Origin: Anaeromyces robustus
Taxonomy: Eukaryota; Neocallimastigomycota; Neocallimastigomycetes; Neocallimastigales; Neocallimastigaceae
Direction: 5' to 3'
Length of the DNA: 27,500 nucleotides
NCBI GenBank assembly: GCA_002104895.1
Contig: MCFG01000451.1
Location: 1-27,500, forward strand
Shown here: one piece after another, positions 284 to 27,500 of the stretch
How the letters are laid out: each line of letters begins with the position of its first letter
How positions within the stretch are numbered: position 1 is the first letter of the stretch
Made by a program: the position numbers and the translations under genes
The notes under the pieces: model-generated
What the model was told of the DNA's origin: nothing
What the model saw: the letters and a program-made list of their open reading frames with translations, nothing else
The model's database searches: none

Positions 284-3056
284 TATTAATATTTTATTTA
301 TAATTTTATTTTTTTTTTTTTTTGATTGTAATAATAATTAATTAATTAATTAATTATAATATATATATTTATTTATTCTTGTAATAATAACAATTAATAA
401 TATTTAATATATAATATTATTCTTTTGATTACAATAATAATAATATTTAATATATAATATTATTCTTTTGATTACAATAATAATAATATTTAATTTATAT
501 ATTTATTATTATAATTATACAATATTTTTAATAAAGAGGTGACATTTCAAATGGTCATCTAAATCCAATTTATTCTACAGAACCTACTGAATTGGCAGAT
601 TATGAATACGACATAGAAAATGAAGAAAATGAAATAAATGAAGAAATTGATATTATATTCGGTGAAGTTACTACTGATAATGGATATTATTATGATTATT
701 ATGAAGATAGTAATATTAAAACTTTAAATGAGAAATATCCTTTAATTAATTGGAAATTATATTTTGAAAAAAGATTTAAACACTATGGTCTTGAAATTCC
801 AATTAATGAAGAATCAGTTATTAATATGTATAAAGATTTAGAGTATTTATTTAAATATATAAAAGAAAAATGAAGAACTTGCTAATTATATTGAATGGTA
901 TTATTATTCTTATTATTAATTAAATTGAAACATATAAATTCATAATAAATAAGAAAAAATAAATAAAATATATTTAAAATTATTTAATATTAATACTTTT
1001 ATATTAAAAAAAATAATATTCATAAATAATTTAGGACTATTATTGAAAGAATTATAGAAAGTTCTTATAATTATGGTTATTTAATATCGGATGAACTACA
1101 TGAAATAACAATGGAATATGATTCTTCTTTAAATTCTATTATGAATGATAATATAAAATTTGCAAGTAGTAAATATAATATAGTTTAAATATTAGTATAT
1201 ATAATATTTGAATATTTTTTCTTTTTTATTTTATAATTTTAATTTATCAATTTGTTAATTTATATATAATAATATAAAATATAATTCTATGAAAATGAAA
1301 ATTAAAAAATCAATAGAAGAAAGAGAAAATGAAAATACCAATATATTCCAAGAAAACAATGGAAATTTTACATGTTACGATTTAATGAATAATCATATGT
1401 CATTAGCACTCAGTAAATATTATGCTGAAAAGATATTTACTGAAAATGATAAATCCGAATCAATGAATATGATGGAAAACATTAGAAATGCAATGATTTA
1501 TAGAATAAAAGAATTAGAATGGCTTGATGAATCAACAAGAGAATATGCTATTAAAAAAATTTTAAATATTAAATATATCCTTGGATATACTGATAATATT
1601 TTGAATACTGAAAATCTTTATAATAAATATAAATTTTTTGAACCAATAGAAAATGATGACCCTATGTTTTTAATGTTAAGTCAAGAAAATGTTAATAATT
1701 ATAAAATTTTCCAAAATATATATAATGAAAATTATAAAGAGATTGAAGAACAGAATTATGAAATTACTGATAGTGATCAATCATTTGTTAGTATTTATTT
1801 ATTTTAGAATCATAAATATTATATATTAAATCATTTTAAATAAATAAAAAGTTTTAAAGAAATTAATTAATATATATATGTTCATAAAAAAATTTTTTTA
1901 ATATAAAATATATGTAATTCATATTTTAGATAGTAAACGCGTATTATAGTCCAAATGAAAATTTAATGATTTTCCCAGCTGCTATTTTACAATCACCAAA
2001 TTTTGATATAAATCAACCAGATTACATAAGCTATGGTAATATTGGAAGTACAATGGGACATGAACTTACTCATGCTTTTGATGATAGTGGTAAAAATTTT
2101 GATGCTGAAGGAAAAGAATTTAATTGGGTTAGTATATGTTTTAAAAATTGCAATTAATATATATATATAATATATTTAATAAAAAGTAAATTTTATTTAT
2201 ATTTTATATTAATACTTTAAATAATTATATTAATACTAAATAATATAATGTATTTATTATTATAAAGTGGACAGATAATGATAGTGAAGAATTCGAAGAA
2301 TTTTCTCAATGCTTCATTGATCAGTAAGTATAGTTAAAATGATTTGTTTTTAGTTTTTTAAAAGCTAAATAATTATATAATATTTTCTTTCTTTTTTTTT
2401 TTTTTTTTTATTAATATATATTTTCAATAATATTTTTTTTTATTTTATGTTCAATATAAATTTTTCAATGATCTAATTTAAAACATTTTTAACAATTAAT
2501 TTAGATATAATAGTTATTCATTTGAATTAAAAGGAGAAAAATATAATGTTAATGGAAAGGTAAATAAATAAATAATAATAAAAAATTATAATTTATAATA
2601 AAACAAATATAAAAGTGTAAATATAATGAAATAAAATCCATTCACATTGGAAAAAATAATAATAATATTAATAATAATCGAAATGATTAATTTATTTTAT
2701 TTTAAAATATATATAATTATTAGAGAACTCTTGGTGAAAATCTTGCTGATAATGGTGGATTAGATAGAGCATATGAAGCTTGGAAATTATCCATAGAAAA
2801 TAATCCAGAAAAAGCTAAAGAACGTAATAAATTACTTCCAGGTCTTTCAAATTATACAATGGATCAATTATTCTACATCTATTTTGCTCATTATTATTGT
2901 AATGTAGGTGTTACTGAGTCTGCTATTAGAGATGTACATTCTCCAGGAAAATTTCGTGTTAATGGTTCAGTCAGTAATAGTGAACGTTTTGCTAAAATAT
3001 TTAAATGTCCAAAAAAATCACCAATGAATCCAGATATAAAATGTGTTCTTTGGTAA
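1..3056 (+). pseudogene. M13 (neprilysin-like) metallopeptidase copy A, 5'-truncated by window edge, broken
   Basis: Exons inferred by alignment to copies B-D: 1-133 (end of exon 4), 537-897, 1035-1168, 1278-1786, 1930-2127, 2268-2323, 2505-2559, 2724-3056. M13 hallmarks remain: NAYY in exon 8, GHELTH zinc motif, GENLADNGG carrying the third zinc ligand, DVHSPGKFRVNG (catalytic His and Arg), and a C-terminus ending CVLW. Two lesions suggest a host pseudogene. Exon 5 has a net 5-nt loss near 868 compared with copies B and C, giving a TGA at 871-873. The acceptor before exon 7 reads AA where copies C and D have AG (1276-1277). The family normally encodes zinc-dependent endopeptidases cutting peptides N-terminal to hydrophobic residues. 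Family assignment is sure; loss of function is likely unless the splicing differs. Confidence 0.85.
401..486. repeat. 43-bp tandem duplication in intron 4 of copy A
   Basis: Two identical 43-bp units (401-443 and 444-486), each running from TATTTAATATATAATA to ACAATAATAATAA, followed by a partial third start. It lies inside the enlarged intron 4 (134-536), which is otherwise AAT/TAA triplet repeat. Copies B-D do not show this doubling. Confidence 0.85.
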
Positions 3057-3784: not shown

Positions 3785-4300
3785 TTTAAAAATAGATGAA
3801 ATCATCCTTTTTTATTTAATTAACTATTTTCATAAGCTTTAAATATTAAAGTAGTGAAAATTTTGGTATATTTTTGTTTTGTTGTTTTATCATGAATGTT
3901 CATTTTTATTTCATTAATTTTTGAATAATATAAACGGAAATCATCAGAGTAATAGATTATATATTGTTAATATCAATCCAGTTGATATTAAATTTTATAA
4001 TTATTTTTATTTAAAACCATAAAGTTGACCATACTTTGTGGATTTGCTCCTGACATTTAGTCGAAAAAAGATTATGCATCTATTCTAATAGGATACAAAC
4101 AATTATTTTCAATATCTCGAGTACTATTATGAATCTGTAGAGATAACTTGAATAGATGAATCTTTATAACATTGATATCCATTTATTAGTTTATATAAGT
4201 TAAATATAAAATATATTATAATATATTTCTTTCCATCAACTTTACACTAAATTTTATCAATTAAATTCCAACCACCATCTTTATATAAACAAGATGATTA
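3785..4300 (-). pseudogene. Decayed dockerin-gene fragment between M13 copies A and B
   Basis: Read on the minus strand, this segment aligns with the 3' half of dockerin gene 2 (25270-25835). It shares the words GATGAAATCATCCTTTT, CGGAAATCATCAGAGTAATAG and TTGATATCCATTTATT, and the antisense of the dockerin motifs around TTTACAC and CCATCTTTAT. It covers the C-terminal domain and dockerins 3 and part of 2. It has many indels and no open frame. The high-coordinate border falls inside dockerin 2, at the same place as the remnant at 15715-15990, so truncation came before the tandem duplication. It is a remnant of a host gene. Confidence 0.8.
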
Positions 4301-5030
4301 GATGATAATCAAATGAATATAAAATATAAAATATAATATTTTATAATATTAATATTATTAATAATAGTTATAAAATAAAATAATCATATTTAATATAAAA
4401 TATGAAATATTACTATTTTTAAGTAGTTATTATTTATGAATATTTTATGTTTAGTATTTATAATAATAATTTTTGAAAGATTTAACAATAATTATAATAA
4501 TAATTAGATTATTATTTATTATATATATAAGTTTTATTTTATTGTCTTTTATTATGTTTTTTTATATGTTTTTATATACAGAATATTCTATTGTTTTATA
4601 AATATATATTACAAAATTTTTTAAATTAAAAAGAAATATATTTTATAATATATTTCCATTTAAATTAAAAAACCAATTAGAATAACAAAAATTAAATTAA
4701 TTTATTATTTTTATAAAAGAGGAAAATTTTATTTTTATATAATTTAAAATATTAATTGAAGTTTAGTATTTTCTATTTTACTTTTTTTTATATACTTTTT
4801 TTTTTTTATTTTTATATAAAAAGAATTAAAAAATTATTATTAAATTAAAAAAAAAAAAAAAAAAAAATTCTTAAAAATTCAAACAAAATATATTAATTAT
4901 ATATTAATATAGAATTCATTAAAAAATTTATAATAATTATATATATAGTAATTAAAATTAAAAATAATAAATACAAATAAATTGAAATAAAAAATTTAAA
5001 AAAATTTCAATTTCTATCATATATTAAAAA
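4301..5030. other. Intergenic 5' flank of M13 copy B
   Basis: No gene seen. The part up to about 4450 matches 15990-16155 upstream of copy D (both end near TTTTTAAGTAGTTATTATT). The last 300 bp match the 5' flanks of copies C and D and hold the TATA candidate at 4813 and a long A tract near 4845-4866. The block TTTCAATTTCTATCATATAT directly before the ATG is shared by all three copies, with small differences in D. Confidence 0.6.
4813..4821 (+). promoter_or_regulatory. Candidate TATA box of M13 copy B
   Basis: TATATAAAA sits about 210 nt upstream of the ATG, after a T-rich tract and before an A tract. The same word and arrangement recur upstream of copies C (10332) and D (16581). Such words are common in DNA this A/T-rich, so the support is the conserved position next to a conserved T-tract. 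Confidence 0.35.
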
Positions 5031-6473
5031 ATGAAATTCAAAAATATTAGTATTATTATTTCTTTATTATCCTTAAATTTAAAGGTATTTTCTGTACCTT
5101 TAAAGGAAAACAAAGTACATTGTAAATTAGTAAAAAATTTAAATAAACCAAAAAATGTTATCAATGATATTGATATTTTGGAAGACAAAATATACGACAC
5201 TTTACCTGTTGATAACATTGATATTGATACTAAAGTGACTGATATTGTAGATTTGGATATTGAATCTGTTCCAGTTATTGATGCAGATGAAGTAATATAT
5301 ATTAATTTTTATAAAATATATAATATATTTTAATGTATTATTATTATTATTTATAATAAATATATATATAGACTAAAATTAACTATTTTTTCTTCAAAAT
5401 ATTTATTAAATATATTTTAGTGTACTACAAAAGAATGTATTGAAAATTCAAAAAGAATTTTAAGTAGTTTAGATACATCTGTTAATCCTTGTGATGATTT
5501 TTATGAATTTAGTTGTGGTGGTTGGATAGCTGAGGTATAATAATTATTTAAAGTTTATAATAATAAATATTTTTTTTAAAATAAAATAAATTATACTAAA
5601 ATTATATTTTTCTAATTTCATAAATATATTATAAATTTTCTTTTAATTATTCATATTAGAATAATAATCACCCTAATAAAAAACCTGGTTATTCAATTTT
5701 TGATCAGATATCTGATAATGTTCAAGTACGAAAATAAATATATATATATATATATATATTAAATTATATTTTATTAATATATGAATTATTAATTAAATAA
5801 TTCATATATTAATATTTTAAATAATTAAAATTTATTAATTATAATAATATATTAAATTATATAAATCTTAATTAATTTTATATTAGGCTGATTTATTTAA
5901 AATATTAAATAGTGATTACAAGATTAATGAAAATTTAAGTCCAAAAGAACAAGAATATGATGAAAAATTGTTTAATACAATGAAAAAATTTTATACAACG
6001 TGTAAAAACATTTTTAGCAAAACATATAATGGAGATGAAATTTTAATTAATTTCATTAATAAATTTAATATTACTGAAACATTAAACCAACATGATGGAT
6101 TAACTACGTTATTGGCAGAACTTCATAATAATGCTATTAGTACATTTTTTGAAGTGCGTGTATCTAATAGTCATGATTTTCCATACTATATTCCATTTAT
6201 TATTCATAATTATGGAGAAGGAATATTAGAAGATGCTCTTCTTGAAGATGAACTTTCTAAAGAAGGACTTTCATTGGAAGGAGGATTTGAAAACGAAAAT
6301 GAATACAATGAATATCGTCAGAAACAAGAAAGAATAGTTGATAACTATAAGAGATATATTAAAAAAGTATTACAAACAATTTATGGATCAAATGAAATTG
6401 AAAAAAGAATTGATAAAATGATTGAATCTATTGTGAAAATTAAGAAAATATATTCCCGATCTTTAATAGAGTA

Positions 6474-6536
<63 letters not shown>

Positions 6537-8983
6537 TATAATTATAATTATAATAATAAATATAATAAAAATATTAATAATAATATAATAATTATAATAA
6601 TAATTATTAATAATATTTAATTTATATATATATTTATTTATTATTGTAATAATAAAATTAATGATAATAATATTTAATTTATATATTTATTCTTATAATT
6701 GTACAATTTTTTTTTAATAAAGAAATGACATTTCAAATAAATCTCCAAAACCAATTTATTTTACAGAACCTACAGAATTGGCAGATCATGAATATGACAA
6801 AGAAAATGAAGAAAATGAAGAAACTGAATATATAACAGATGGAGTTACTACTGATAATGAATATTATGATGATAAGGAATTTAATATTAAAACATTAAAT
6901 GAGAAATATCCTTTTATTAATTGGAAATTATATTTTGAAAAAATATTTAAATATTACGGTCTTGAAATTCAAATTAATGAAGAATCAATTATTAGAATGG
7001 ATAAAAATTTAGATTATTTCTTTAAATATATTAAAGAGATCAATAATGAAGACCTTGCTAATTATATTGAATGGTATTATTACTATTATTAATTAAATTA
7101 AAACATATAAATTAATAATAAATAAAACAAAATAATTAAAATATATTTAAAATTATTTAATACTAATAATTTTAAATTAATAAAAAAATAACATTCATAA
7201 ATAATTTAGGATTATAATTAAAAATGTTATAGACTTTTCTAATAAATATAGTTATTTGATTTCTGATGAACTACGTAAAATAACAATGGAATATGATTCT
7301 TCTTTAATTTTTATTATTAATGACGATGAAATATTTAAAGAAAGGGATATAGATTCTAAATGTTTCAATTTTATTAATGATAAAATGTCATTGGTACTCA
7401 GTAAATATTATGTTGAAAATAAATTTACTGAAAATGATAAATATGAGACAACAAATATGGTGGAAAATATTAGAAATGCAATGATTTATAGAATAAAAGG
7501 ATTAGAATGGCTTGATGAATCAACAAGAGAATATGCTATTAAAAAAGTTTTAAATATTAAATATATCCTTGGACATACTGATAATATTTTGAATGCTGAA
7601 AATCTTTATAATAAATATAAATTTTTTGAACCAAAAGAAGATGATGACCCTATGTTTTTACTATTAGGTTCAGAAAATATTTATAAATATAATTCTTTCC
7701 AAAAAATATATAATGAAAATTATAATGAGATTGAAAAACAGATTGAAAAAATTATTGATAGTAATCCATCATATGTTAGTATTTATTTATTTTATAATCA
7801 TAAATATTATATATTAAATCATTTTAAATAAATAAAAAGTTTTAAAAAAATTAATTAATATATATATTGAAAAAAAAATTTTTCTATCAAATATATGTAA
7901 TTCATATTTTAGAAAGTAAACGCGTTTTATAATCCATGGGAAAATTTAATGATTTTCCCAGCTGCTGTTTTTCAATCACCAAACTTTGATATAAATCAAC
8001 CAGACTATATTAATTATGGTAATACTGGAAGTATAATAGGACATGAACTTACTCATGCTTTTGATGATAGTGGTAGAAGTTATGATATTGAAGGAAAAGA
8101 ATCTAATTGGGTTAGTATATGTTTTAAAAATTGAAATAGATGCTTATATATAAATATATATTTATTAAAAATTAAATTTTATTTTTTTTATATTATTAAT
8201 ACTTTAAATAAATATATTAATATAATATATTTACTATTAATACTTAATAATATATTGTTATAAAGTGGACAGATAATGATAATGAAGAATTTGTTGAATT
8301 TTCTCAATGCTTCATTGACCAGTAAATATAGTCATAATGATTTATTTTTTTTTTTTTAAAGTTAAATAATTATAAAATTTTTTCTTTTTTTTTCAATAAA
8401 TATTTTTCAATGATCTAATTAAAATATTATTTACTTAGATATAATAGCTATTCATTTGAATTAGAAGGAGAAGAATATAATGTTGATGGAAGGGTAAATA
8501 AATAAATAATAAAAAACTATAATTTATAATAAAACAAATATAAAAGTATAAATAAAATGAAATAAAATCATTCACATAGGAAAATAATAATATATTAGTA
8601 ATAATCGAAGTGATTAATTTATTTTATTTTAAAATATATATAATTATTAGAGAACTCTTGGTGAAAATCTTGCTGATAATGGTGGATTAGATAGAGCATA
8701 TAAAGCATGGAAATTATCTATAGAAAATAATCCAGAAAAAGCTAAAGAACGTAATAAATTACTTCCAGGTCTTTCAAATTATACAATGGATCAATTATTC
8801 TACATCTCTTATGCTCATTCTAGATGTGAAGTAGGTGTTAGTGAATATGCTAATGACGATGAACATGCTCCAGGAAAGTCTCGTGTTAATGGTTCAGTCA
8901 GTAATAGTGAACGTTTTGCTAAAATATTTAATTGTCCAAAAAAATCTCCAATGAATCCAGATATAAAATGTGTTCTTTGGTAA
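5031..8983 (+). CDS. Secreted M13 family (neprilysin-like) zinc metallopeptidase, copy B, apparently intact
   Basis: Ten inferred exons: 5031-5291, 5421-5534, 5660-5725, 5887-6470, 6723-7073, 7210-7774, 7913-8110, 8266-8321, 8439-8493, 8651-8983, giving 860 aa. Residues 1 to about 22 form a signal peptide (hydrophobic [14 protein letters not shown]), followed by an acidic spacer to about 87. The M13 N-terminal domain starts with [10 protein letters not shown] and [14 protein letters not shown]. Catalytic region: NAFY substrate-binding motif (650-653), HELTH zinc motif (691-695), third ligand E755 and D759 in GENLAD, D820/H822 and R828, and terminal CVLW. An extracellular endopeptidase is expected; a cleavable-looking signal replaces the usual type II anchor. 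Odd points: exons 6 and 7 are fused and about 24 residues are missing there compared with D, and HAP replaces the usual HSP. The family is certain; exon borders are inferred from frame and copy comparison. Confidence 0.88.
6477..6536. repeat. (AAT)n microsatellite in intron 4 of copy B
   Basis: An almost pure AAT/ATA triplet tract of about 20 units starts right after the exon 4 donor. Copy A has a similar but interrupted tract (about 225-285); copies C and D have much shorter ones. It explains much of the length variation of this intron. Confidence 0.9.
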
Positions 8984-9814: not shown

Positions 9815-10020
9815 ACTTTATTATTTAATCTTTAAATACTATAATAGTGAAATTTTTGAAATATTTTTGTTTTCATGAAGATTCATTTTTATTTCATTAA
9901 TTTGTGAATAATTTTTGTCATAAAAACGGAAATCATCAGAGTAATAGATTATATTTTCAATATCAAATAAGTTTTCATTTGGAATTAAAGTTAAAATATC
10001 AAATTTTTCCTATAATATTA
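9815..10020 (-). pseudogene. Decayed dockerin-gene 3' fragment between M13 copies B and C
   Basis: On the minus strand this matches the C-terminal domain of the dockerin genes. CGGAAATCATCAGAGTAATAG is shared with the remnant at 3785-4300 and nearly with dockerin gene 2 near 25449, and GGAATTAAAGTTAAAATATC matches the antisense of the VTLI strand. Only the C-terminal domain is left and no frame is open. It marks the same ancestral neighbour as the remnants in the other two spacers. Confidence 0.7.
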
Positions 10021-10567
10021 TAAACTAGTTTTGGTTTTTCTTTTATTAAAAATTTATTTTGTCATTAATTATTTTTTAAATTTCTACTTTATTAATTATA
10101 ATATTTTTTTATTTTTTAATTACAATTTTTATAATTTTTTTTTTAAAAAAAATTTACAAAAATTTTTTAAATTAAAAAACCAATACGAAAAAAATATTTA
10201 AAAAAATAAAAAAATAGAATTTACTAATTTGTTATTCTGAATATAAAAGTAAATTTTTTTATATTTTTAAATAAAATATTAATTAAATTTTAGAGTTTTC
10301 TTTTTTTCTTTTTTTATATTATTACTTTTTTTATATAAAAAGATAAAAAATCTATAATTTTTAAATTTTTTTTAAAAAAAAAAAAATTCTTAAATATAAA
10401 AATATAATATTATATATTAATTATATATATAAATTTCATTGAAAACTATAAAATATTATTTAAATAAATATATATAGTAATAAAAATTAAAAATAATAAA
10501 TAAAAATATAAAAATTAATTGAAATATAAAATTTTAAAAGATTTCAATTTCTATCATATATTAAAAA
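10021..10567. other. Intergenic 5' flank of M13 copy C
   Basis: No gene seen. A/T-only sequence whose last 300 bp match the 5' flanks of copies B and D, including the TATA candidate at 10332 and the block TTTCAATTTCTATCATATAT before the ATG. Confidence 0.55.
10332..10340 (+). promoter_or_regulatory. Candidate TATA box of M13 copy C
   Basis: TATATAAAA lies about 228 nt before the ATG, in the same arrangement (T tract, TATA word, AAGA, A tract) as upstream of copies B and D. Confidence 0.3.
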
Positions 10568-13500
10568 ATGAAATTCAAAAATATTAGTATTATTATTTCT
10601 TTATTATCCTTAAATTTAAAAGTATTTTCTGTACCTTTAAAGGAAAACAAAGTACATTGTAAATTAGTAAAAAATTTAAATAAACCAAAAAATGTTATCA
10701 ATGATATTGATACTTTGGAAGACGAAGTATACGACACTTTACCTGTTGATAACATTGATAATGATACTAAAGTGACTGATATTGTAGATTTGGATGTTGA
10801 ATCTGTTCCAGTTTTTGATACAAATGAAGTAATATATTTTAATATATTATTATTTTTATTTATAATAAATATATATATATAGACTAAAATTAACTTTTTT
10901 TCTTCAAATATTTAATAAATATATTTTAGTGTACTACAAAAGAATGTATTGAAAATTCAAAAAGAATTTTAAGTAGTTTAGATACATCTGTTAATCCTTG
11001 TGATAATTTTTATGAATTTAGTTGTGGTGGTTGGATAGCTGAGGTATAATAATTATTTAAAGTTTATAATAATAAATATTTTTTTTTCTTAAAATTAAAT
11101 AAATAATAATAAAATTATATTCATCTAATTTTATAAATATATTAACTTTTAATTATTTATATTAGAATAATAATCACCCTAATAAAAATCCTGGTTATTC
11201 AATTTTTGATCAGATATCTGATAATGTTCAAGTACGAAAATAAATAAATATTTATATATATATTAAATTATATTTTATTAAATTATGAATTATTAATTAA
11301 ATGATTAAAATTTACTAATTATAATAATATTTTAAATAATATAATCTTAATTAATTTTATATTAGGCTGATTTATTTAAAATATTAAATAGTGATTACAA
11401 GATTAATGAAAATTTAAGTCCAAAAGAACAAGAATATGATGAAAAATTGTTTAATACAATGAAAAAATTTTATACAGCATGTAAATACATTTTTAGCAAA
11501 ACATATAATGGAGATGAAATTTTAATTAATTTCATTAATAAATTTAATATTACTAAAGTATTAAACCAACATGATGGATTAACTACGTTATTGGCGGAAC
11601 TTCATAATAATTATATTAATATATTTTTTGATATTGGTGTGAATGGAAGTCCCGATTTTCCATATGAACTTCCATCAATTACTTTTTATTGTCCAGAAAC
11701 ATATTTAGGAGATACTCTTCTTGAAGATGAACTTTCTAAAGAAGGACTTTCATTAGAAGGAGAATTTAAAAATGAAAATGAATACAATGAATATCGTCAA
11801 AAACAAGAAAAAATAGCTGATATCACTAAAAAATATATTAGAAAAGTTATACAAACAATTTATGGATCAAATAAAATTGAAAATAGAATTGATAAAATGA
11901 TTGAATCTATTATGAAAGTTGAAAAACAATTAAAATTATCTATAATAGAGTAATTAATTATAATAAATATAATAATTATTATAATAATAATTAATAATAT
12001 TTAAATTTTTATTTTAATTATTTGATTATAATAATAATAATATTTAATTTATATATTTATTCTTATAATTATACTATTTTTTTTTAATAAAGAGATGACA
12101 TTTCAAATAATTCACTAAAACCAATTTATTCTACAGAACCTACAGAATTGGCAGATTATGTATATGACAAAGAAAATGAAGAAAATGAAGAAACTGAATA
12201 TATAACAGATGAAGTTACTACTGATAATGAATATTATTATGATTATTATGAAGATATTAATATTAAAACTTTAAATGAGAAATATCCTTTAATTAATTGG
12301 AAATTATATTTTGAAAAAAGATTTAAATATTACGGTCTTGAAATTCAAATTAATGAAGAATCAGTTATTAGTATGGATAAAAATTTTGAATATTTATATA
12401 AATATATTAAAGAAATCAGTAATGAAGACCTTGCTAATTATATTGAATGGTATTATTATTATTATTAAAATTAAAACATATAAATTCGTAATAAATAAGA
12501 AAAAATAAATAACATATTTTAAAATTATTTAATTCTAATTGTTTTATATTAATAAAAAAAAACAATATTTATAAATAATTTAGGTCTATCATTAAAAAAA
12601 TTATAGAAATATCTTATAATAATTATAGTTATTTAATTTCTGATCAACTTCAGCAAGTAAGGATGGAATATCAAAATTCTAAATATTCTATATTAGATGA
12701 TAATGAAAAATATTTAGGTAACAAATATTATATAACTTAAATATTAGTGTTTATATATATATATATATAATATTTTATATTTATTTTTATTTTATAATTT
12801 TATTTTATAAATATATATATATTTTTATAATAACATAGAATATAATTTTATGAAAAAGAAAGTTAAAAAAGAAATAGAAGGAGAAAATACAAATATTTTC
12901 AAAGAAAGCGATGTAGATTCTAAATGTTTCAATTTTATTAATGATTATATGCCATTGGCACTCAGTAAATATTATGTTGAAAAGAAATTTACTGGAAATG
13001 ATAAATCTGAAGCAATGAATATGGTAGAAAACATTAGAAATGCAATGATTAATAGAATAAAAGGATTACAATGGCTTGATGAATCAACAAGAGAATATGC
13101 TATTAAAAAAGTTTCAAATATTAAATATATCCTTGGACATTCTGATTATATTATGAATGTTGAAAATCTTTATTATCAATATAAATTTTTTAAACCAATG
13201 CAAGATGATGACCCTTGTTTTTACTATTAAGTCAAGAAAATGCTTATTATTATAATTTTTTCCGAGGAATATATACTGAAATTTATAATGAAATTAAAGA
13301 ACAAACTCAGAATATTATTGAATATATTATACCATCATATGTTAGTATTTTTTATATTAGAAACATAAAAATTATATTTTAAGTCTTTATAAAAAAACTT
13401 TAAAGAAATTTATTAATATATATATGTTAAAAAAATTTTTTTTATATCAAATATATGTAATCCATTATTTAGTTTGTAAACGCATTTTATAGTCCATCAG

Positions 13501-14528
13501 AAAATTTAATGTTTATCTCAACTGGTATTTTACAATCACCAAAATTTGATATAAATCAACCAGATTATATTAATTATGGTAATATTGGAAGTACAATAGG
13601 ACATGAACTTACTCATGCTTTTGATAATAATGGTAAAAATTATGATGCTGAAGGAAAAGAATTCAATTGGGTTAATATATGTTTTAAAAATTAAAATTAA
13701 TATATATATATATAATATATTTAATAAAAAATAAATTTTATTTATATTTATATTAATACTTAATAATAATTATATTTATATTATACAGTGGACAGATAAT
13801 GATAGTGATGAATTTGATGAATTTTCTCAATGCTTCATTGACCAGTAAATATTTTTAAAATAATTTTTTTTTAAAGATTAATAATTATATAATATTTTTT
13901 TTTATTCAATATAAATATTTAAAAATCTAATTAAAACATTTTTAACAATTTATTTAGATATAATAGCTATTCGTTTGAATTAGAAGGAGAAGAATATAAT
14001 GTTGATGGAGAGGTACATAAATAAATAAATAAATAAATAATAAAAATCTATAATTTATAATAAAACAAAACAAATATAAAAGTATAAATATAATGAAATA
14101 AAATTATTCAAATGTAAAAAAAAAAAGAAAAAATTATTATTAATAATAATAGAAATGATTAATTTAATTTATTTTATAATATGTATAATTATTAGAGAAC
14201 TCTTGGTGAAAATCTTGCTGATAATGGTGAATTAGATAGAGCATATGAAGCTTGGAAATTATCCATAGAAAATAATCCAGAAAAAGCTAAAGAACGTAAT
14301 AAATTACTTCCAGGTCTTTCAAATTATACAATGGATCAATTATTCTACATCTCCTTTGCTCATTCTTTTTGTGAAGTAGGTGTTAGTGAATATGCTAATG
14401 AAGATGAACATTCTCCAGGAAAATCTCGTGTTAATGGTTCAGTCAGTAATAATGAACGCTTCGCTAAAATATTTAATTGTCCAACAAAAAAACCAATGAA
14501 TCCAGATATGAAATGTGTTCTTTGGTAA
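10568..14528 (+). pseudogene. M13 (neprilysin-like) metallopeptidase copy C, frameshifted
   Basis: Eleven inferred exons: 10568-10828, 10930-11043, 11166-11231, 11366-11949, 12093-12449, 12584-12717, 12839-13340, 13473-13670, 13789-13844, 13958-14012, 14196-14528. Signal peptide, acidic spacer, [24 protein letters not shown] and terminal CVLW are all present. Exon 7 has lost one nucleotide near 13215 (CCTTG against CCTATG in copy B), giving a stop at 13228-13230 ahead of the zinc site. Other changes also suggest relaxed constraint: CDNFYEF for CDDFYEF, FISTGILQ for FPAAVLQ, and ADNGE for ADNGG beside the third zinc ligand. All splice sites otherwise look usable, so the loss may be recent. It remains possible that a sequencing error explains the single-base loss. 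Confidence 0.82.
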
Positions 14529-15607: not shown

Positions 15608-15714
15608 TTAAAACTTTTTAATATAATTTTTTTAGCAATTAATAATAATTATTTATTTATTTATTTTAGCAATTAATAATAATTACTTATTTATTTATTA
15701 TTTATTTATTACGT

Positions 15715-15990
15715 TATAGATTTGCTTCTGATATTATGTCGAATAAAGATTCTGCATTTATTCTAATATCATTAAATTCTGGAATTATCTGAATATTACT
15801 CTACCGATTATTTTCAATATTCAAAGTACGATTTTCATCTAAAAAAATAGTTTGAATGAAAGAATCTTTACAACTTTTATATGTATTTATTAGTTCACGT
15901 ATATTAAAACATTTATTTTCCTCAACTTTACACCAAGTTTTATTAATTAAATTCCAATCACCATTTTTATATAAATATATTTATTTAATT
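15715..15990 (-). pseudogene. Decayed dockerin-gene fragment between M13 copies C and D
   Basis: The minus strand matches dockerin 3 and part of dockerin 2 of the two dockerin genes: words antisense to the WC and CC positions remain (AACTTTACACCAAG, AAATTCCAATCACCATTTTTAT). The C-terminal domain is missing, unlike the fragment at 3785-4300, but the high-coordinate border is the same. No frame is open. Confidence 0.75.
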
Positions 15991-16852
15991 ATTAGATATT
16001 AATTAAATAAATATTAAATATAAAATATAATAATTTATAATATTAATGATATTAATAATAATTATAAAATATAATAACATTAATATTATATATAAAATAT
16101 AAAATGTTATTATTTTTAAGTAGTTATTATTGATGAATACTTTATGTTTAAATCTTTTATTAAAATTTATAATAATATTGAAAGATTTTATATTAGAATT
16201 TAAACTAATTTTAGAGATAAACTATAAAATAATAAATATAAAAAAAATAAACAATTTTATATATATAAAAAATTTATTAAAAAAGTGATTAATTATGTTC
16301 AAATTTTTTTTTATAAACTAATAAATAAAAATAAATAAAGTTTTTTTTCTAAATTAAATTTGCTTTTTTTTTTTTGTCAAAAAATTATTATATCCACAAT
16401 TATTTGTATTTAAATCTTATTAATTATAAAATTTCTCTTTTTTATTCGAAAATCTATATTGATTAATGAAATTTAATTTTTTATTAATTAAAAAAAGTTT
16501 ACCGTTTTATTTATAATATTAAATAATAAAGTATAGACTTTTCTTTTTTTTCTTTTCTTTTTTTTTTTTTTCTATATTTTTATATAAAAGAATAAAAATA
16601 ACCTAAATTGTTAAATTCCAAAAAAAAAAAAAAAAAATCTTAAAAAAAATTTATCAAAAAAAATATTAATTAAATAAATATAAAATTTATCAAAAATAAT
16701 ATTAATTAAATAAATAAAAAATTTATTAAAAGCTATATAATAATTATATAAATAAATATATAAATATAATAATAAAAATTAAAAATAAATAAAAATAAAA
16801 AAGTAATTGAAGTTAATATTTAAAAAAATTTCAATTTTATCATATATAAAAA
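15991..16852. other. Intergenic 5' flank of M13 copy D
   Basis: No gene seen. The first part matches 4301-4450 upstream of copy B; the last 300 bp match the other M13 5' flanks. A T-rich tract (16540-16571) precedes the TATA candidate, and an imperfect repeat of AAATTTATCAAAAATAATATTAA-like sequence occurs near 16650-16720. Confidence 0.5.
16581..16589 (+). promoter_or_regulatory. Candidate TATA box of M13 copy D
   Basis: TATATAAAA about 264 nt before the ATG, after a 30-nt pyrimidine tract and before an A tract, as in copies B and C. Confidence 0.3.
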
Positions 16853-19800
16853 ATGAAATTCAAAAATATTAGTATTATTATTTCTTTATTATCTTTAAAT
16901 TTAAAAGTATTTTCTGTACCTTTAAAGGAAAACGAAATACATTCTGATTTAGCAAATAATTCAGATAAACCAAAAAATGTTATCAATGATATTGATACTT
17001 TGGAAGACGAAGTATACGATACTTTACCTGTTGATAACATTGATATTGATACCAAAGTAACCGATATTGTTGATTTGGATGTTGAATCTGTCCCAGTTAT
17101 TGATGCAGATGAAGTAATATATTTTAATATATTATTATTATTATTCGTAATAAATATATATATATAAACAAGAATTAACTATTTTTTCTTCAAAATATTT
17201 AATAAATATTATTTAGTGTACTACAAAAGAATGTATTGAAAATTCAAAAAGAATTTTAAGTAGTTTAAATACATCTGTTAATCCTTGTGATGATTTTTAT
17301 GAATTTAGTTGTGGTGGTTGGATAGCTGAGGTATAATAATTAAAGTTTATGTTAATAAATTTTTTAAAATAAAATAAATAAGAATAAAATCATATTTATC
17401 TAATTTTATAAATATTTAATAAAATTAGAATAATAATAAAAATTCTGGTTATTCAATTTTTGATCAAATATCTGATAATGTCAAAGTAAGAAAATTAATA
17501 TTAATATATATATTAAATTTTATTTTATAAATATATTATATATGAATTATTAATTAAAATATTAATATTTATTAATTATAATTATATTTTAAATTATATA
17601 AACCTAAATTAATTTTGTATTAGGCTGATTTACATGAAATATTAAGTAGTGATTACAAGATTAATGAAAATTTAAGTCCAAAAGAACAAGAATATGATGA
17701 AAAGATGTTTAATACAATGAAAAATTTTTATACAGCATGTAAAAACGTTTATAACAAAACATATAATGGAGATGAAATTTTAATTAATTTCATTAATAAA
17801 TTTAATATTACTGAAACATTAAACCAACATGATGGATTAACTACGTTACTGGCAGATCTTCATAATAATGGTATTAATATATTTTTTGAAATGAGTGTGT
17901 CTGAAAGTCCTGATTTACCATATGATCTTCCAACAATTGTTCATAATTATCTAGAAACATATTTAGGAGATGCTCTTCTTGAAGAAGAATTTTCTAAAGA
18001 AGGACTTTCATTAGAAGGAGGATTTGAAAACGAAAATGAATACAATGAATATCTTCAGAAACAAGAAAGAATAGTTGATAACACTAAAAAATATATTAGA
18101 AAAGTATTACAAACAATATATGGATCAAATAAAATTGAAAATAGAATTGATAGAATGATTGAATCTATTATGAAAATTAAAAAAATATTTACCCGATCTT
18201 TAATAGAGTAATAATAATAATTAATAATAATTAATAATAATAATATTTAATTTATTTTTTTTATTTTTATTTTTTTTTTGATTAAAGTAATAATAATATT
18301 ATTATTAAATTTATATATTTTATTCTTTTGATTAAAATAATAATAATAATAATATTTTATTTATATATTTATTTTTTTAATTATTCTTTTTTCTTTTTCT
18401 TTTTAAATAAAGAGATAATTTTTCAGATTATTCTGTAAAACCAATTTATTCTACAGAACCTACAGAATCAATAGAAAATGAAGAAAATGAAGAAAATGAA
18501 GAAAATGAAGAAACTGAAAATTTAACAGACGAAGAAACTGAAAAATTAACAGACGAAGAAACTGAAAATTTAACAGACGAAGAAACTGAAAAATTAACAG
18601 ACGAAGAAACTGAAAAATTAACAGACGAAGAAACTGAAAATTTAACAGATGAAGAAACAACTGATAATAATTATGAAAATAATTATGAAAATTTTGAAGA
18701 TGATTACGAAAATACTAATATCAAAACATTAAATGAGGAATATCCTTTTATTAATTGGAATTTATATTTTGAAAAAAGATTTAAACACTACGGTCTTGAA
18801 GTTTCAATTAATGAGGAATCAATTATTAGCATAGAAAAAGTAAAAAATTTATTTAAATATCTTAAAGAAATCAGTAATGAAGATCTTGCTAATTATATTG
18901 AATGGTATTTTATTATTTAAATTAAAATATATAAATTCATAATAAATAAAAATAAATAAATAAAATAAATTTAAAATTACTTAATACTAATAATTTTATA
19001 TTAAAAAAAAAAAAATAACATTCATAAATATTTAGGAGTATTATTATAAATATTATGGATTATTCTGTAGATAATTATATGGGTGATATATTTGGATATT
19101 TAATTTCTAAAGAACTTCGTCAAATAAAAAAGGCATATGAAGATTCTATATATCATGATAAAGAAATATTTAGAGAAAGTAAATATTATATAATTTAAAT
19201 ATAATTTAAATATTAGTACATATATATAAAATATTTTAATAATATTTTTTTATATTATAATTTATTAATTTGTTTATTTATGTATAATAATATAGATTAC
19301 AATTCTATGAAAATGAAAATTAAAAAAGCAATAGAAGAAGGAGAAAATACTGATATATTCAAAGAAAACGATGTAGATTCTAAATGTTTCAATTTTATTA
19401 ATAATAATATGTCATTGGCATTCAGTAAATATTATGTTGAAAAGAAATTTAATGAAAATGATAAATCTGAAACAATGAATATGGTAGAAAACATTAGAAA
19501 TGCAATGATTTATAGAATAAAAGGATTAGAATGGCTTGATGAATCAACAAGAGAATATGCTATTAAAAAAGTTTTAAATATTAAATATATCCTTGGACAT
19601 TCTGATTATATTATGAATGTTCAAAATCTTTATGATCAATATAAATTTTATGAACCAATACAAGATGACCCTATATCTTTACTATTAGGTACATTAAATG
19701 CTTATTACTATAATTTTTTCAAATATATATATAATGATAGTTATGAGATTGAAGAACAGGCTCAGAATATTATTGAAAAAATTATGCCAGCATACGTTAG

Positions 19801-21018
19801 TATTTATTTATATTTTATAATCATAAATATTAAATTTTTTTAAATAAATTAAAAGTTTTAAAGATATTAATTAATATATATATGTAAATAAAAAAAAATT
19901 GTTTTTTATATTAAATATATGTAATTCATATTTTAGGAAGTAAATGCTGTTTATAGTTCATCAGAAAATTTAATGAGTTTCCCAGCTGCTGTTTTACAAT
20001 CACCAAACTTTGATATAAATCAACCAGACTATATTAATTATGGTAATACTGGAAGTACAATAGGACATGAACTTACTCATGCTTTTGATAATGATGGTAA
20101 AAATTATGATGCTGAAGGAAAAGAATTTAATTGGGTTAGTATATGTTTTAAAAATTGAAATTAATGCGTATATATATATATTTATGTATTTAATAAAAAT
20201 TCAATCTTAAATTTTTATTTATATTAATACTTTTAATACTTTAAATAAATTTATTATATTTATTCTTATAAAGTGGACAGATAATGATAGTGAAGAATTT
20301 GATGAATTTTCTCAATGTTTCATTGACCAGTAAGTATTTTTAAAATAATTTTTTTTTTTTTTGAAAGTTTAATAATTATATAAATATTTTTTTTTATTCA
20401 ATATAACTATTTAAAAATCTAATTAAAACATTTTTAACAATTTATTTAGATATAATAGCTATTCATTTGAATTAGAAGGAGAAGAATATAATGTTGATGG
20501 AGAGGTACATAAATAAATAAATAAATAAATAATAAAAATCTATAATTTATAATAAAACAAAACAAATATAAAAGTATAAATATAATGAAATAAAATCATT
20601 CACATGTAAAAAAAAAAGAAAAAATTATTATTAATAATAATAGAAATGATTAATTTAATTGATTTATAATATGTATAATTATTAGAGAACTCTTGGTGAA
20701 AATCTTGCTGATAATGGTGGATTAGATAGAGCATATGAAGCTTGGAAATTATCCATAGAAAATAATCCAGAAAAAGCTAAAGAACGTAATAAATTACTTC
20801 CAGGTCTTTCAAATTATACAATGGATCAATTATTCTACATCTCTTTTGCTCATTCTAATTGTGAAGTAGGTGTTAGTGAATATGCTAATGAAGATGAACA
20901 TTCTCCAGGAAAATCACGTGTTAATGGTTCAGTCAGTAATAATGAACGTTTCGCTAAAATATTTAATTGTCCAACAAAAACTCCAATGAATCCAGATATG
21001 AAATGTGTTCTTTGGTAG
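16853..21018 (+). CDS. Secreted M13 family (neprilysin-like) zinc metallopeptidase, copy D, intact, with expanded acidic repeat
   Basis: Eleven inferred exons: 16853-17113, 17217-17330, 17429-17485, 17624-18207, 18413-18904, 19036-19178, 19296-19795, 19937-20134, 20274-20329, 20450-20504, 20686-21018, giving 930 aa. A signal peptide (first ~22 residues) and acidic spacer precede the M13 domain ([20 protein letters not shown]). Catalytic features: NAVY motif, HELTH (761-765), E825 and D829 in GENLAD, H892 and R898 in [12 protein letters not shown], terminal CVLW; all expected zinc and catalytic residues are present. Exon 3 is three codons shorter than in B and C. Exon 5 carries six copies of an 8-residue acidic repeat (371-418), so the protein is longer than typical M13 enzymes (about 650-770 aa). 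Likely a secreted endopeptidase; substrate unknown. It is the best candidate for a working gene together with copy B. Confidence 0.9.
18507..18650 (+). repeat. Six 24-bp in-frame repeats in exon 5 of copy D
   Basis: Six exact-length 24-bp units encode EETENLTD or EETEKLTD in the order N, K, N, K, K, N. They follow a short GAAAAT (EN/EE) tract at about 18471-18506. Copies B and C carry one related block (EETEYITD). NLT units form Asn-X-Thr glycosylation sequons; KLT units do not. Confidence 0.93.
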
Positions 21019-22689: not shown

Positions 22690-22905
22690 AACATCATTTT
22701 ATTTCAATTTTTTTTTTTTCTAAAATATTTCAGTTTTAAAACTAAAAATATTTATGTTATAGGTTATTTTAGAAGGATTAATTGGAATACCAATTTATAA
22801 TTTCATATTTTCACTAAAAATTATTATTTTTATCACATGAAAAAAACTAAAAAAATCTAATATTGTTGTATTGTTATGAATTAAATTATATGGTATTGTT
22901 TGATT
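22690..22905 (-). repeat. Decayed tandem duplicate of the dockerin gene 1 C-terminal domain
   Basis: Matches 22935-23205 of the same gene: CAGTTTTAAAACT, then TTAT-TT-GAA and GGAATACCA-TTATA, ATTTCATATTTT, and upstream ATTATAT then TTGTTTGA-TA. Several gaps separate the copies. The gene's present stop codon and last 35 or so residues lie inside this duplicate, partly in its original frame (QTIPYNL against QTIPEYN) and then out of frame. Confidence 0.75.
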
Positions 22906-23929
22906 ATTAAATATTTTGAAGTATTTTTGTTTTGTTGTTTTATCACGAAGGATCATTTTAATTTCATTTTCCTTCCACATCACACTTTCAGTTTTAAAAC
23001 TGAAACTATTTGAGTTGTAGGTTATCTTGGAAAAATTAACTGGAATACCATTTATAATTAAAGTTACAATTTCATATTTTTCTTCAAAGTTATTACCTTT
23101 ATCATATAAAAAATTAACAATCTTATATTCTTGTCCTGAAATTTTATCTATATAAGATACTGGTGTTAATTCAAAATCATTATATTCTGGAATTGTTTGA
23201 ATAAGACACCAATGATTATCTTCAATTCCCCAAGTAGTCCCATCAGTATCTGTAGTAATAATTTTTGATGAATTTTTACAATATTTATATCCTTTCTTTG
23301 GTTCACAAATACTAAAACATCTCCTTTCATTAACTTTACACCAAGTTTTATCTGTTTTATCATAATACCAACCACCATCTTTATCAAAATAGTTGGATAC
23401 ACATTCATCACAGTATGGATAATCACCAAACATTTCTTCTCCTTCAGGATAACCAATTCCACACATTACAAAATTATCAATTATATCGAAATCTCCTAAA
23501 TCATATGAGGTTATCTTGACTTCATTATTGTTACAACAAGGATATCCAAAAATACGAGCATAACATTTCTCACCATTATCTTCAACTGATAAAGTAATGG
23601 AAGAAATGTTGAAAATTATTTATTTATATTTATTTATTTCAATATTGAATTTTAAAAAATAATATATATATATATATAATTATAAATTATTTTATTATTA
23701 ATAATTATAGGATAAATATATATTTTTTAAAATAATTATAATAATCATTAATAATTATATTTATTATAAATTTTAATTATATATAATGAAAATATAAAAT
23801 ATTATATAAATATTAATAAGTTTGATATTATTTACCATTATATAATTTCTCAAATGATGAAAATTCATCAGCTACAACCATTGATAATGTTAAAGTTGCA
23901 ATAATGGCAATAATAAATTGAGATTTCAT
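22795..23929 (-). CDS. Secreted triple-dockerin protein (fungal CBM10-like dockerins), gene 1
   Basis: Two exons, 23836-23929 and 22795-23585, with a 250-nt phase-1 intron (GTAAAT donor, TATCAG acceptor), giving 294 aa. Residues 1-20 are a signal peptide (MKSQFIIAIIATLTLSMVVA). Three dockerin modules follow: 39-75 (CYARIFGYPCC to CGI), 76-116 (GDYPYC, DKDGGW, WCKV) and 121-160 (CFSICEPKKGYKYC, TDGTTWGI, HWCLI). Fungal dockerins tether enzymes and other proteins to cohesin-bearing scaffoldins of the extracellular cellulosome. Residues from about 161 to 257 form a beta-rich-looking domain (YEIVTLIINGIPV, IKMILRDKTTKQKYFKIF) that I do not recognise; it recurs in gene 2. The last 35 or so residues come from a decayed duplicate of this domain. 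Dockerin identity is confident; target-binding role of the C-terminal domain is only a guess. Confidence 0.87.
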
Positions 23930-25334: not shown

Positions 25335-26088
25335 TTAAGAAACTCTTAATATTGTAGTAAAGAAATATTTGTAATATTTTTGATTTGTTGTTTTATCACG
25401 AATAATCATTTTTATATCATTAAATTCTGAAAAATTTCTGCTATAAAAACGGAAATTATCAGAGTAATAGATTACACTAATAGGATCAATTGGTTCTTCA
25501 TTTAGAATTAAAGTTACAATTTCATATTTTTCCTCAAAATCTATATTCTTTTCATGTGAAAACATAAAATTGGCCTTATTTCCTACATTTGCTCCTGGCA
25601 TTGAGTCATATATTGATCTTGCAATTATTGAAATATCATTAAATACTGGAATTGTTTTAATATGACACCAATGATTATTTTCAATACCCCAAGTACCATC
25701 ATCATCTGTTAAGATAACTTGAGTGGATGAATCTTTACAACATTGATATCCATTTATTGGTTCACATATATCAAAACATTTCTTTTCCTTAACTTTACAC
25801 CATGTTTTATCAACTAAATTCCAACGACCATCTTTATCAACATAATTTGCATCACATCCATCACAATATGGATAATCACCAAACATTTCTTCTTTTTCTT
25901 CAGGAAAACCAATACCACAATATGAACCTGTTCTTTCAATTATACCTAAATTTCCATACTCTTCGCTAACCATAACGACTTCATTATTGTTACAACAAGG
26001 TAATCCAAAACTAAGAGCATAACAATCTTCACTATTACCTTTAACATTTAAAATGTTTTATTTATATATTTATATATTTGTTAATTTT

Positions 26089-26123
<35 letters not shown>

Positions 26124-27284
26124 TTTTTTTATTTTATATTATTATTTACCAGGTATGGTCCAATCTAATTAATTTTCATTTTTTTCAAAAATTCAAATAT
26201 TATATACTTAATAAAAACTTATAAAAAATTTTATTTTGAAATTATAGATATATTATTGTTTATCACCTCCCAACCAATCTAATTCATTTTCATTTTTTTC
26301 AAAAATTCAAATATTATATACTTAATAAAAACTTATAATTTTATTTTGAAATTATAAATATTATTATTTACCAGGTATGGGCCAATCTAATTCATTTTCA
26401 TTTTTTTTAAAAATTCAAATATTATATACTTAATAAAAACTTATAATTTTATTTTGAAATTATATATATTATTATTATTTACCACCAGTAGGAAATTCTA
26501 ATTCATTTTCATTTTTTTTAAAAATTCAAATATTATATATTTAATAAAAACTTTTAATTTTATTTTGAAATTATATATATATTATTATTTACCACTATCA
26601 CCCCAAACTAATTTATTATCATTTTTTTCAAAAATTCAAATATTATATATTTAATAAAAACTTAAAATTTTATTTTGAAATTATATATATATTATTATTT
26701 ATCACCTCTGAACCAATCTAATTCATTTTCATTTTTTTCAAAAATTCAAATATTATATACTTAATAAAAACTTTTAATTTTATTTTGAAATTAAATTATA
26801 TATATTAATATTTACCATCTTTGAACCAATCCATTCATTTTCATTTTTTTTCAAAAATTCAAATATTATATATTTAATAAAAACTTATAATTTTATTTTG
26901 AAATTAAATTATATATATTAATATTTACCATCTTTGAACCAATCCATTCATTTTCATTTTTTTTTCAAAAATTCAAATATTATATATTTAATAAAAACTT
27001 ATAATTTTATTTTGAAATTAAATTATATATATTATTATTTACCATTTCCGAACCAATCTAATTCATTTTCATTTTTTTCAAAAATTCAAATATTATATAC
27101 TTAATAAAAACTTATAATTTTATTTTGAAATTAAATTATATATATTAATATTTACCATCTTTGAACCAATCCATTCATTTTCATTTTTTTTTCAAAAATT
27201 CAAATATTATATATTTAATAAAAACTTATAATTTTATTTTGAAATTAAATTATATATATTATTATTTACCATTTCCGAACCAAT
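25335..27284 (-). CDS. Triple-dockerin protein gene 2 with upstream microexon array (5' end outside window or unresolved)
   Basis: The main 3' exon is 25335-26038 (acceptor TTAAAG, phase 1, 234 codons including stop). It encodes three fungal dockerins (CYALSFGLPCC to YCGI; GDYPYCDGC, DKDGRW, WCKV; CFDICEPINGYQCC, DDDGTWGI, HWCHI) and the same C-terminal domain as gene 1 (YEIVTLILNEEP, IKMIIRDKTTNQKYYKYF). The phase matches gene 1, where a signal-peptide exon precedes. Here the upstream region instead holds candidate 12-15 nt exons: 26150-26164, 26267-26278, 26372-26386, 26483-26497, 26593-26607, 26706-26717, 27043-27057 and 27270-27284, all phase 1 to phase 1, so joined they stay open into the dockerin exon. 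No signal-peptide exon is visible before 27500; it probably lies further right. Dockerin exon 0.9 sure; microexon reading about 0.6. Confidence 0.78.
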
Positions 27285-27410
27285 CTAATTCATTTTCATT
27301 TTTTTCAAAAATTCAAATATTATATACTTAATAAAAACTTATAATTTTATTTTTAAATTATATATATTAATATTTACCATCTTTGAACCAATCATTCATT
27401 TTCATTTTTT
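26150..27410 (-). repeat. Array of 12 repeats (~111 bp), each with a microexon-like core
   Basis: Repeat pitch is 108-114 bp. On the minus strand each unit reads: GTAAAT donor, A/T-rich intron with ATAAGTTTTTATTAA and ATATTTGAATTTTTG, GAAAATGAATTAG acceptor, core, next GTAAAT. Core positions: 26150, 26267, 26372, 26483, 26593, 26706, 26816, 26929, 27043, 27156, 27270, 27378. Encoded blocks (leftmost first, first codon completed by G of the previous exon): DWTIP, DWLG, DWPIP, EFPTG, VWGDS, DWFR, then DWFKD (three units whose acceptor AG is missing: 26816, 26929, 27156), DWFGN at 27043 and 27270, and DWFKD without AG at 27378. The last units alternate DWFKD/DWFGN, showing a recent two-unit duplication. 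Confidence 0.9.
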
Positions 27411-27500
27411 TTATTTTTTGAAAATGTAATGTTTTATTTAAATAATTATTTATTTATTTTTTAATTTATTAAATATAATAAAATTTAAAGAAAAAAAACA

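Follow-up and report, generated by a model that had tools for sequence, protein, structure and literature searches.

The closest described systems to the locus considered here are the micro-exon genes (MEGs) of Schistosoma mansoni, which, in the part of the report cited here, consist of very short exons in rows, most of them 15 bp long and mostly multiples of three, and encode secreted proteins in which the signal peptide is followed by an aromatic motif, several proteins being produced per gene (PMC10526429). A microexon in the Xlr2 gene of Trichoderma virens was missed by the consensus gene model, probably for its size, and the excerpted text of the same 2024 Trichoderma paper presents functional microexons as previously undescribed in filamentous fungi, acknowledging tested cases in Schizosaccharomyces pombe (PMC11121469). 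As outlined in the cited portion of the source, the bicycle effector genes of aphids have many small internal exons, nearly all in one phase, and encode fast-evolving proteins (PMC9168663), and the SP7-like effectors of Glomeromycotina are described, in the section drawn on here, as carrying imperfect repeats downstream of a signal peptide, with the repeat number affecting binding (PMC11333574).

Like those of the MEGs, the short candidate exons of the array described below are multiples of three (15 nt in six of the eight AG cores and 12 nt in the other two), their use as exons following from the deposited gene model in two of the eight cases. Unlike the MEGs, the array feeds a single dockerin exon of 704 nt, and the eight cores total 114 nt, so that they do not make up most of the coding sequence; in addition, its introns are about 100 nt long and near-identical, and its units are recent tandem copies. 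The initial annotation had compared the design with that of the schistosome genes, and the comparison holds for the short exons, mostly of 15 nt, but does not extend to membership in that class, since one long exon dominates the coding sequence. We know of no homology between the gut-fungus array gene and the schistosome MEGs. As far as the cited parts of the sources go, the T. virens Xlr2 case, which is also fungal, involves a single microexon, backed by RNA evidence, in a transcription factor, and not an array; the aphid bicycle exons are in phase 2 instead of phase 1 and number about 17 per gene, with no near-identical introns described; and the SP7-like effectors, which are proteins of symbiotic fungi, have a single conserved intron followed by repeat domains of 6-11 units, with no microexons described. 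In the open-licence literature searched, no report of microexons in gut-fungal dockerin genes was found.

Organization of the locus

The window, that is, the whole stretch of DNA analysed, comprises bases 1-27500 of a 50,246-base contig from the 70.2 Mb genome of Anaeromyces robustus, an anaerobic gut fungus. On its minus strand, read 5' to 3', a tandem array precedes the dockerin exon of gene 2 (Table 1). TRF reports a single array at 26135-27411, with a period of 113, 11.5 copies and 89% matches, and the unit count and alignment give 12 units spaced by 106-115 nt, which confirms the twelve repeats of about 111 bp that had been placed directly upstream of the dockerin exon. Non-exhaustive searches found no comparable array elsewhere in the A. 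robustus genome, and DNA searches for the array in a second species gave no relative (protein searches return no DNA). Immediately past the window end lie 2,500 N (27501-30000), the expected place of exon 1, or the signal-peptide exon, of gene 2.

Table 1. Coordinates of the array units and dockerin-gene exons, numbered by position in the window
Feature	Positions	Strand	Description	Basis
Gene 1 exon 2 (dockerin exon)	22795..23585	-	Acceptor TCAG, phase 1	P0004
Gene 1 exon 1	23836..23929	-	94 nt; signal-peptide-like N-terminus by eye; ends in phase 1 at GTAAATAAT	P0004 spliced alignment
Gene 2 exon 2	25335..26038	-	CBM_10 dockerins and C-terminal beta domain of about 100 aa; acceptor AAAG, phase 1	Pfam, P0001
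Tandem array	26135..27411	-	12 units of about 111 bp	TRF, unit list, alignment
U1 core	27378..27392	-	ATTGGTTCAAAGATG; no acceptor; in-frame ATG AAA ATG AAT upstream	Unit list
U2 core	27270..27284	-	15 nt; ATTGGTTCGGAAATG; same as U4	AG-core-GT
U3 core	27156..27170	-	Same as U1 core; no acceptor; in-frame ATG like U6	Unit list
U4 core	27043..27057	-	15 nt; ATTGGTTCGGAAATG; D-WFGN-G	AG-core-GT
U5 core	26929..26943	-	Same as U1 core; no acceptor; in-frame ATG like U6	Unit list
U6 core	26816..26830	-	Same as U1 core; no acceptor; ATG directly before: ATG GAT TGG TTC AAA GAT G, then GTAAAT	
U7 core	26706..26717	-	12 nt; ATTGGTTCAGAG(GTG); shifted donor GTGATAAAT; D-WFR-G	
U8 core	26593..26607	-	15 nt; TTTGGGGTGATAGTG; V-WGDS-G	
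U9 core	26483..26497	-	15 nt; AATTTCCTACTGGTG; E-FPTG-G	
U10 core	26372..26386	-	15 nt; ATTGGCCCATACCTG; D-WPIP-G	
U11 core	26267..26278	-	12 nt; TTAG^ATTGGTTGGGAG^GTGATAAAC; D-WLG; exon in deposited model	
U12 core	26150..26164	-	15 nt; TTAG^ATTGGACCATACCTG^GTAAAT; D-WTIP-G; exon in deposited model	

The reading frame of gene 2 exon 2 stays open for 234 aa and includes dockerin domains as well as conserved alignment columns. Pfam scores CBM_10 (PF02013) with an E-value of 1.4e-17 and 64.3 bits against a cut-off of 23, in two stretches, which does not bear out the three dockerins counted earlier. The CBM_10 family profile also matches the solved fungal dockerins 2j4m and 1e8p (endoglucanase 45A dockerin chains, PDB), and the gene 2 product is clearly a member of the fungal dockerin (CBM_10, PF02013) family. 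No catalytic domain was recognised by Pfam in the gene 2 protein, and the AlphaFold2 model of the C-terminal domain, of fair confidence, is a beta sandwich with weak Ig-like matches. Four CBM_10 proteins came back from a protein search with exon 2, and A. robustus is the named species for three. The relative at C590:13830-14555, which lies inside an open frame of 758 aa, aligns to residues 1-231 of the exon 2 query at 49%; it corresponds to all of exon 2, so that a larger protein, too, contains the dockerins together with the C-terminal beta domain.

Elsewhere in the window, an M13 (neprilysin-type) peptidase gene is present in four tandem copies on the plus strand (535-3056, 5028-8983, 10565-14528 and 16850-21018), the first perhaps cut by the window start. 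Copy 1 is represented by P0013 (from 1295, 371 aa), the sole protein among the 16 from the peptidase search whose contig has the length of the array's contig, and copy 4 contains a 24-bp coding repeat of 6.3 copies (18507-18658, plus strand). Each of the first three copies is followed by a minus-strand dockerin-gene remnant with stops (3838-4288, 9863-10069 and 15711-15977), as if peptidase and dockerin genes had been duplicated as a block. Inspection by eye also showed dockerin-gene-like coding sequence in a short, nearly perfect inverted repeat near C141:83645 (L028:2041-2100), beside the dockerin pseudogene at C141:83105.

Deposited gene model and homologous proteins

The dockerin exon is 100% identical to the hypothetical protein BCR32DRAFT_272678 of A. 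robustus (P0001), a protein of 244 aa that consists of MDWLGDWTIPGNSEDC followed by the remainder of exon 2 and whose N-terminus reads M-DWLG-DWTIP-GNSEDC. An exact spliced alignment of residues 2-244 places two introns, 26266-26165 and 26149-26039, both in phase 1, and thereby makes exons of U11 (12 nt) and U12 (15 nt), so that the deposited protein uses two of the eight candidate AG cores. No placement of its initial methionine by a GT or GC donor was found in the readable sequence, and the deposited gene model may be ab initio.

The homologue P0002 is represented by 8 contigs, the longest of 1,541 nt, which are transcript-like and unbroken from a signal-peptide-like start to the dockerins; we take its source label, lgn, to denote assembled public reads. 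In a MAFFT alignment, NWGFGD...TLPAFNDEDC of P0002 is set against DWLGDWTIPGNSEDC (DWLG-DWTIPG-NSEDC) of P0001. Two paralogues, P0003 (C141:86469) and P0004, the deposited model of gene 1 downstream of gene 2 (exon 1 donor GTAAAT), have a single intron, of 353 or 250 nt respectively, where gene 2 has the array, and the array motif is absent from both introns. Both proteins begin with MKSQ followed by a hydrophobic stretch, as judged by eye; for gene 2, no signal-peptide-like exon was seen by eye in the readable sequence. Exon 1 of P0003 ends in KNWSK-G directly before GTAAAT and so resembles a core (D-WFR-G).

Candidate exons, reading frame and splice signals

Eight of the 12 units contain a core bounded by AG and GT: six (U2, U4, U8, U9, U10 and U12) have 15 nt and the donor GTAAAT, and two (U7 and U11) have the usual donor mutated to ATAAA, a less usual GT 3 nt upstream giving a core of 12 nt. 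The eight cores of 12 or 15 nt listed in the initial annotation are thus counted exactly, with the qualification that two of them need this shifted, less usual donor. Since the units are copies of one another, these eight do not represent eight independent coincidences. A core-adjacent acceptor is absent from the other four units (U1, U3, U5 and U6), which have a common core (DWFKD) and a common donor context, GTAAATATTAAT, and which all carry an in-frame ATG and an A-rich leader; no AG occurs in the readable 108 nt upstream of the U1 core (27393-27500). These four units cannot be cassette exons via a core-adjacent AG, and they may be first exons.

The motif ATGAAAATGAATTAGATTGG, with up to 3 mismatches, has 8 matches in the window, all 8 inside the array, against a shuffled mean of 0.11. 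The pattern TTAG-N12/15-GTAAAT occurs 6 times on the minus strand in the 1,276 nt of the array and has no match in the rest of the window (1-26130 and 27412-27500); both strands of 213,700 nt of other A. robustus DNA, a set that excludes loci of the array's contig and loci fetched by core patterns, yield 4.

In length and frame, both ends of the eight AG cores are consistent with phase 1, the dockerin exon that begins at 26038 is likewise in phase 1, and the paralogue junctions are in phase 1 in two of two spliced alignments (P0003 and P0004). The symmetric phase 1 proposed earlier for the cores, the dockerin-exon acceptor and the gene 1 junction is therefore confirmed by the lengths, the frame and the deposited P0004. 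None of the eight distinct cores contains an in-frame stop. Reading through into the intron from the 15-nt core end meets a stop within 2-3 codons in all 12 units; for U7 and U11, starting from the 12-nt end, it comes after 3 and 4 codons, respectively. Intron retention would thus truncate the protein, and skipping or including a core keeps the frame.

Splice sites were compared with a sample of 19 introns from five deposited proteins (P0003, P0004, P0010, P0013 and P0017) and one gene translated here, several of which are paralogous and hence non-independent, two artefact introns having been dropped. Donors in this sample are GTAAAT (9), GTTAGT (5), GTAAGT (2) and others (3), and acceptors are TTAG (9), ATAG (5), AAAG (4) and TCAG (1). 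The six strong array units carry the commonest pair, TTAG with GTAAAT; U7 and U11 require GTGATA, and GTGATC occurs once in the sample, in P0013.

Divergence of cores and flanks

Divergence was measured on the seven AG units with a full intron, using an ungapped flank. The mean pairwise difference per site is 0.42 in the core and 0.038 in the flank, and variable columns number 12 of 15 in the core and 10 of 93 in the flank (Fisher p 8e-8, to be read as a rough scale, the columns being taken as independent and the common descent of the units ignored); the highest 15-column window free of core columns reaches 0.07. Individual comparisons follow the same course: U2 and U9 are distinguished by 11 of 15 sites in the core and 1 of 70 in the flank, U9 and U10 by 8 of 15 and 1 of 68, and pairs among U8, U9 and U10, which lie outside the deposited model, by 8-9 of 15 in the core and 1-5 of 68-70 in the flank. 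The GC content is 41.7% in the cores, 8.8% in other array sequence and 29% in 25501-26000, within the dockerin exon. The blocks U2-U3 and U4-U5 agree at 226 of 227 bases, which marks a recent 227-bp block duplication; the left half of the array therefore looks young, and the right half, beside the exon, is the diverse one.

Synonymous differences between cores are also high (pS 0.28), and beside a pN of 0.45 this means that the core pattern cannot be read simply as an excess of amino-acid change. A better fit than point-by-point positive selection is given by homogenised introns or by cores replaced as blocks, the cores being either older than the current, recombination-homogenised intron copies or replaced in blocks. 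A frame-preserving, GC-rich and variable 15-mer in a near-constant, AT-rich background matches the expected appearance of coding sequence set in homogenised introns. Since freely drifting duplicates would differ evenly, the uneven divergence speaks for coding cores, and to judge from the sequence it would be hard to explain without them.

Interpretation and alternative explanations

We regard it as fairly probable that several of the cores are translated as symmetric microexons. The gene would then contain a tandemly duplicated microexon cassette in which each AG-type unit provides a 12- or 15-nt exon and about 96 nt of intron. Because each exon opens and closes in phase 1, the number of units could grow, shrink or be spliced differently with the frame intact, and each exon would add an aromatic piece of 4-5 residues before the dockerins (DWFGN, DWFR, VWGDS, EFPTG, DWPIP, DWLG or DWTIP), with U2, U4 and U7-U10 presumably translated as well. 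Selection would hold the cores different and recombination would hold the introns alike. The resemblance of the P0003 exon 1 end to a core suggests that the cassette originated as an exon 1 end with its donor, so that the unit may derive from the 3' end and donor of an exon 1 like that of this paralogue (NWSK-G before GTAAAT); the linker, we would guess, could act as a variable recognition arm on a scaffold-docked protein. DWLGDWTIPGNSEDCYALSF is among the core-junction peptides that this reading predicts. The earlier reading of the locus is upheld in so far as symmetric phase-1 cores are present in a fungal dockerin gene and U11 and U12 are spliced into the deposited P0001 in that frame. Its further element, combinatorial use of the cores, is a tentative and rather unlikely proposition, and the chances are just as limited for a hypervariable array in which intron recombination shuffles the 12-15 nt exons, selection diversifies them, and splicing with alternative starts yields many aromatic arms. 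Counting against the microexon reading, the deposited model, itself perhaps ab initio, takes up two of the eight candidate exons, and six of the 12 units have no acceptor (four) or no usual donor (two), as they might in a decaying array.

These same defects would suit an array that is mostly a dead intronic minisatellite, in which U11 and U12 (or U12 alone) serve as ordinary short exons with homology to the family linker and the rest is duplicated debris with splice sites preserved by chance. That the deposited model takes U11 and U12 only, that the left-hand units are recent copies (1 difference in 227 bases between U2-U3 and U4-U5) and that stop-bearing dockerin remnants lie elsewhere on the contig point the same way; unused units should, however, diverge evenly, whereas U8, U9 and U10 differ far more in core than in flank, as given above, and their cores remain in frame and GC-rich, which leaves this explanation unlikely. 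Stops in the C141:83105 copy and in the remnants on the array's contig would also be in keeping with a gene in decay, its exon 1 lost or distant and the array lying in a pseudogene 5' region that yields no protein, as would the deposited N-terminus, which is a methionine joined to an internal exon, and the failure to see a signal-peptide-like exon by eye in the readable sequence. Yet exon 2 keeps an intact frame of 234 aa, dockerin domains and conserved columns included, and exon 1 could sit in the stretch given as N (27501-30000); decay of the gene is, in our estimate, the most improbable of the explanations weighed here. Scarcely less improbable is a mixed array, in which U1, U3, U5 and U6, each with a start codon of its own, act as alternative first exons and the AG-type units are internal microexons, the start unit setting the number of pieces. 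It would account for the core-frame ATG in four of four acceptor-less units (ATG GAT TGG TTC AAA GAT G; in U1, ATG AAA ATG AAT GAT TGG) with their A-rich leader, for the lack of an AG in the readable 108 nt upstream of U1, and for the single core and single donor context of these units; a protein begun in this way would nevertheless lack the signal-peptide-like N-terminus seen in P0002-P0004, and U3, U5 and U6 are copies, hence the coincidence amounts to about two events.

Implications

If the cores are used as microexons, a fungus, and a cellulosome protein, would show a micro-exon-gene-like design, the sequence indicating exons that differ and introns that are kept alike. The locus would then also offer a small, testable system for the recognition of 12-15 nt exons by the fungal spliceosome, and one end of the protein would be variable with the docking domain unchanged. 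Exons of this kind may escape automatic gene prediction in gut fungi.
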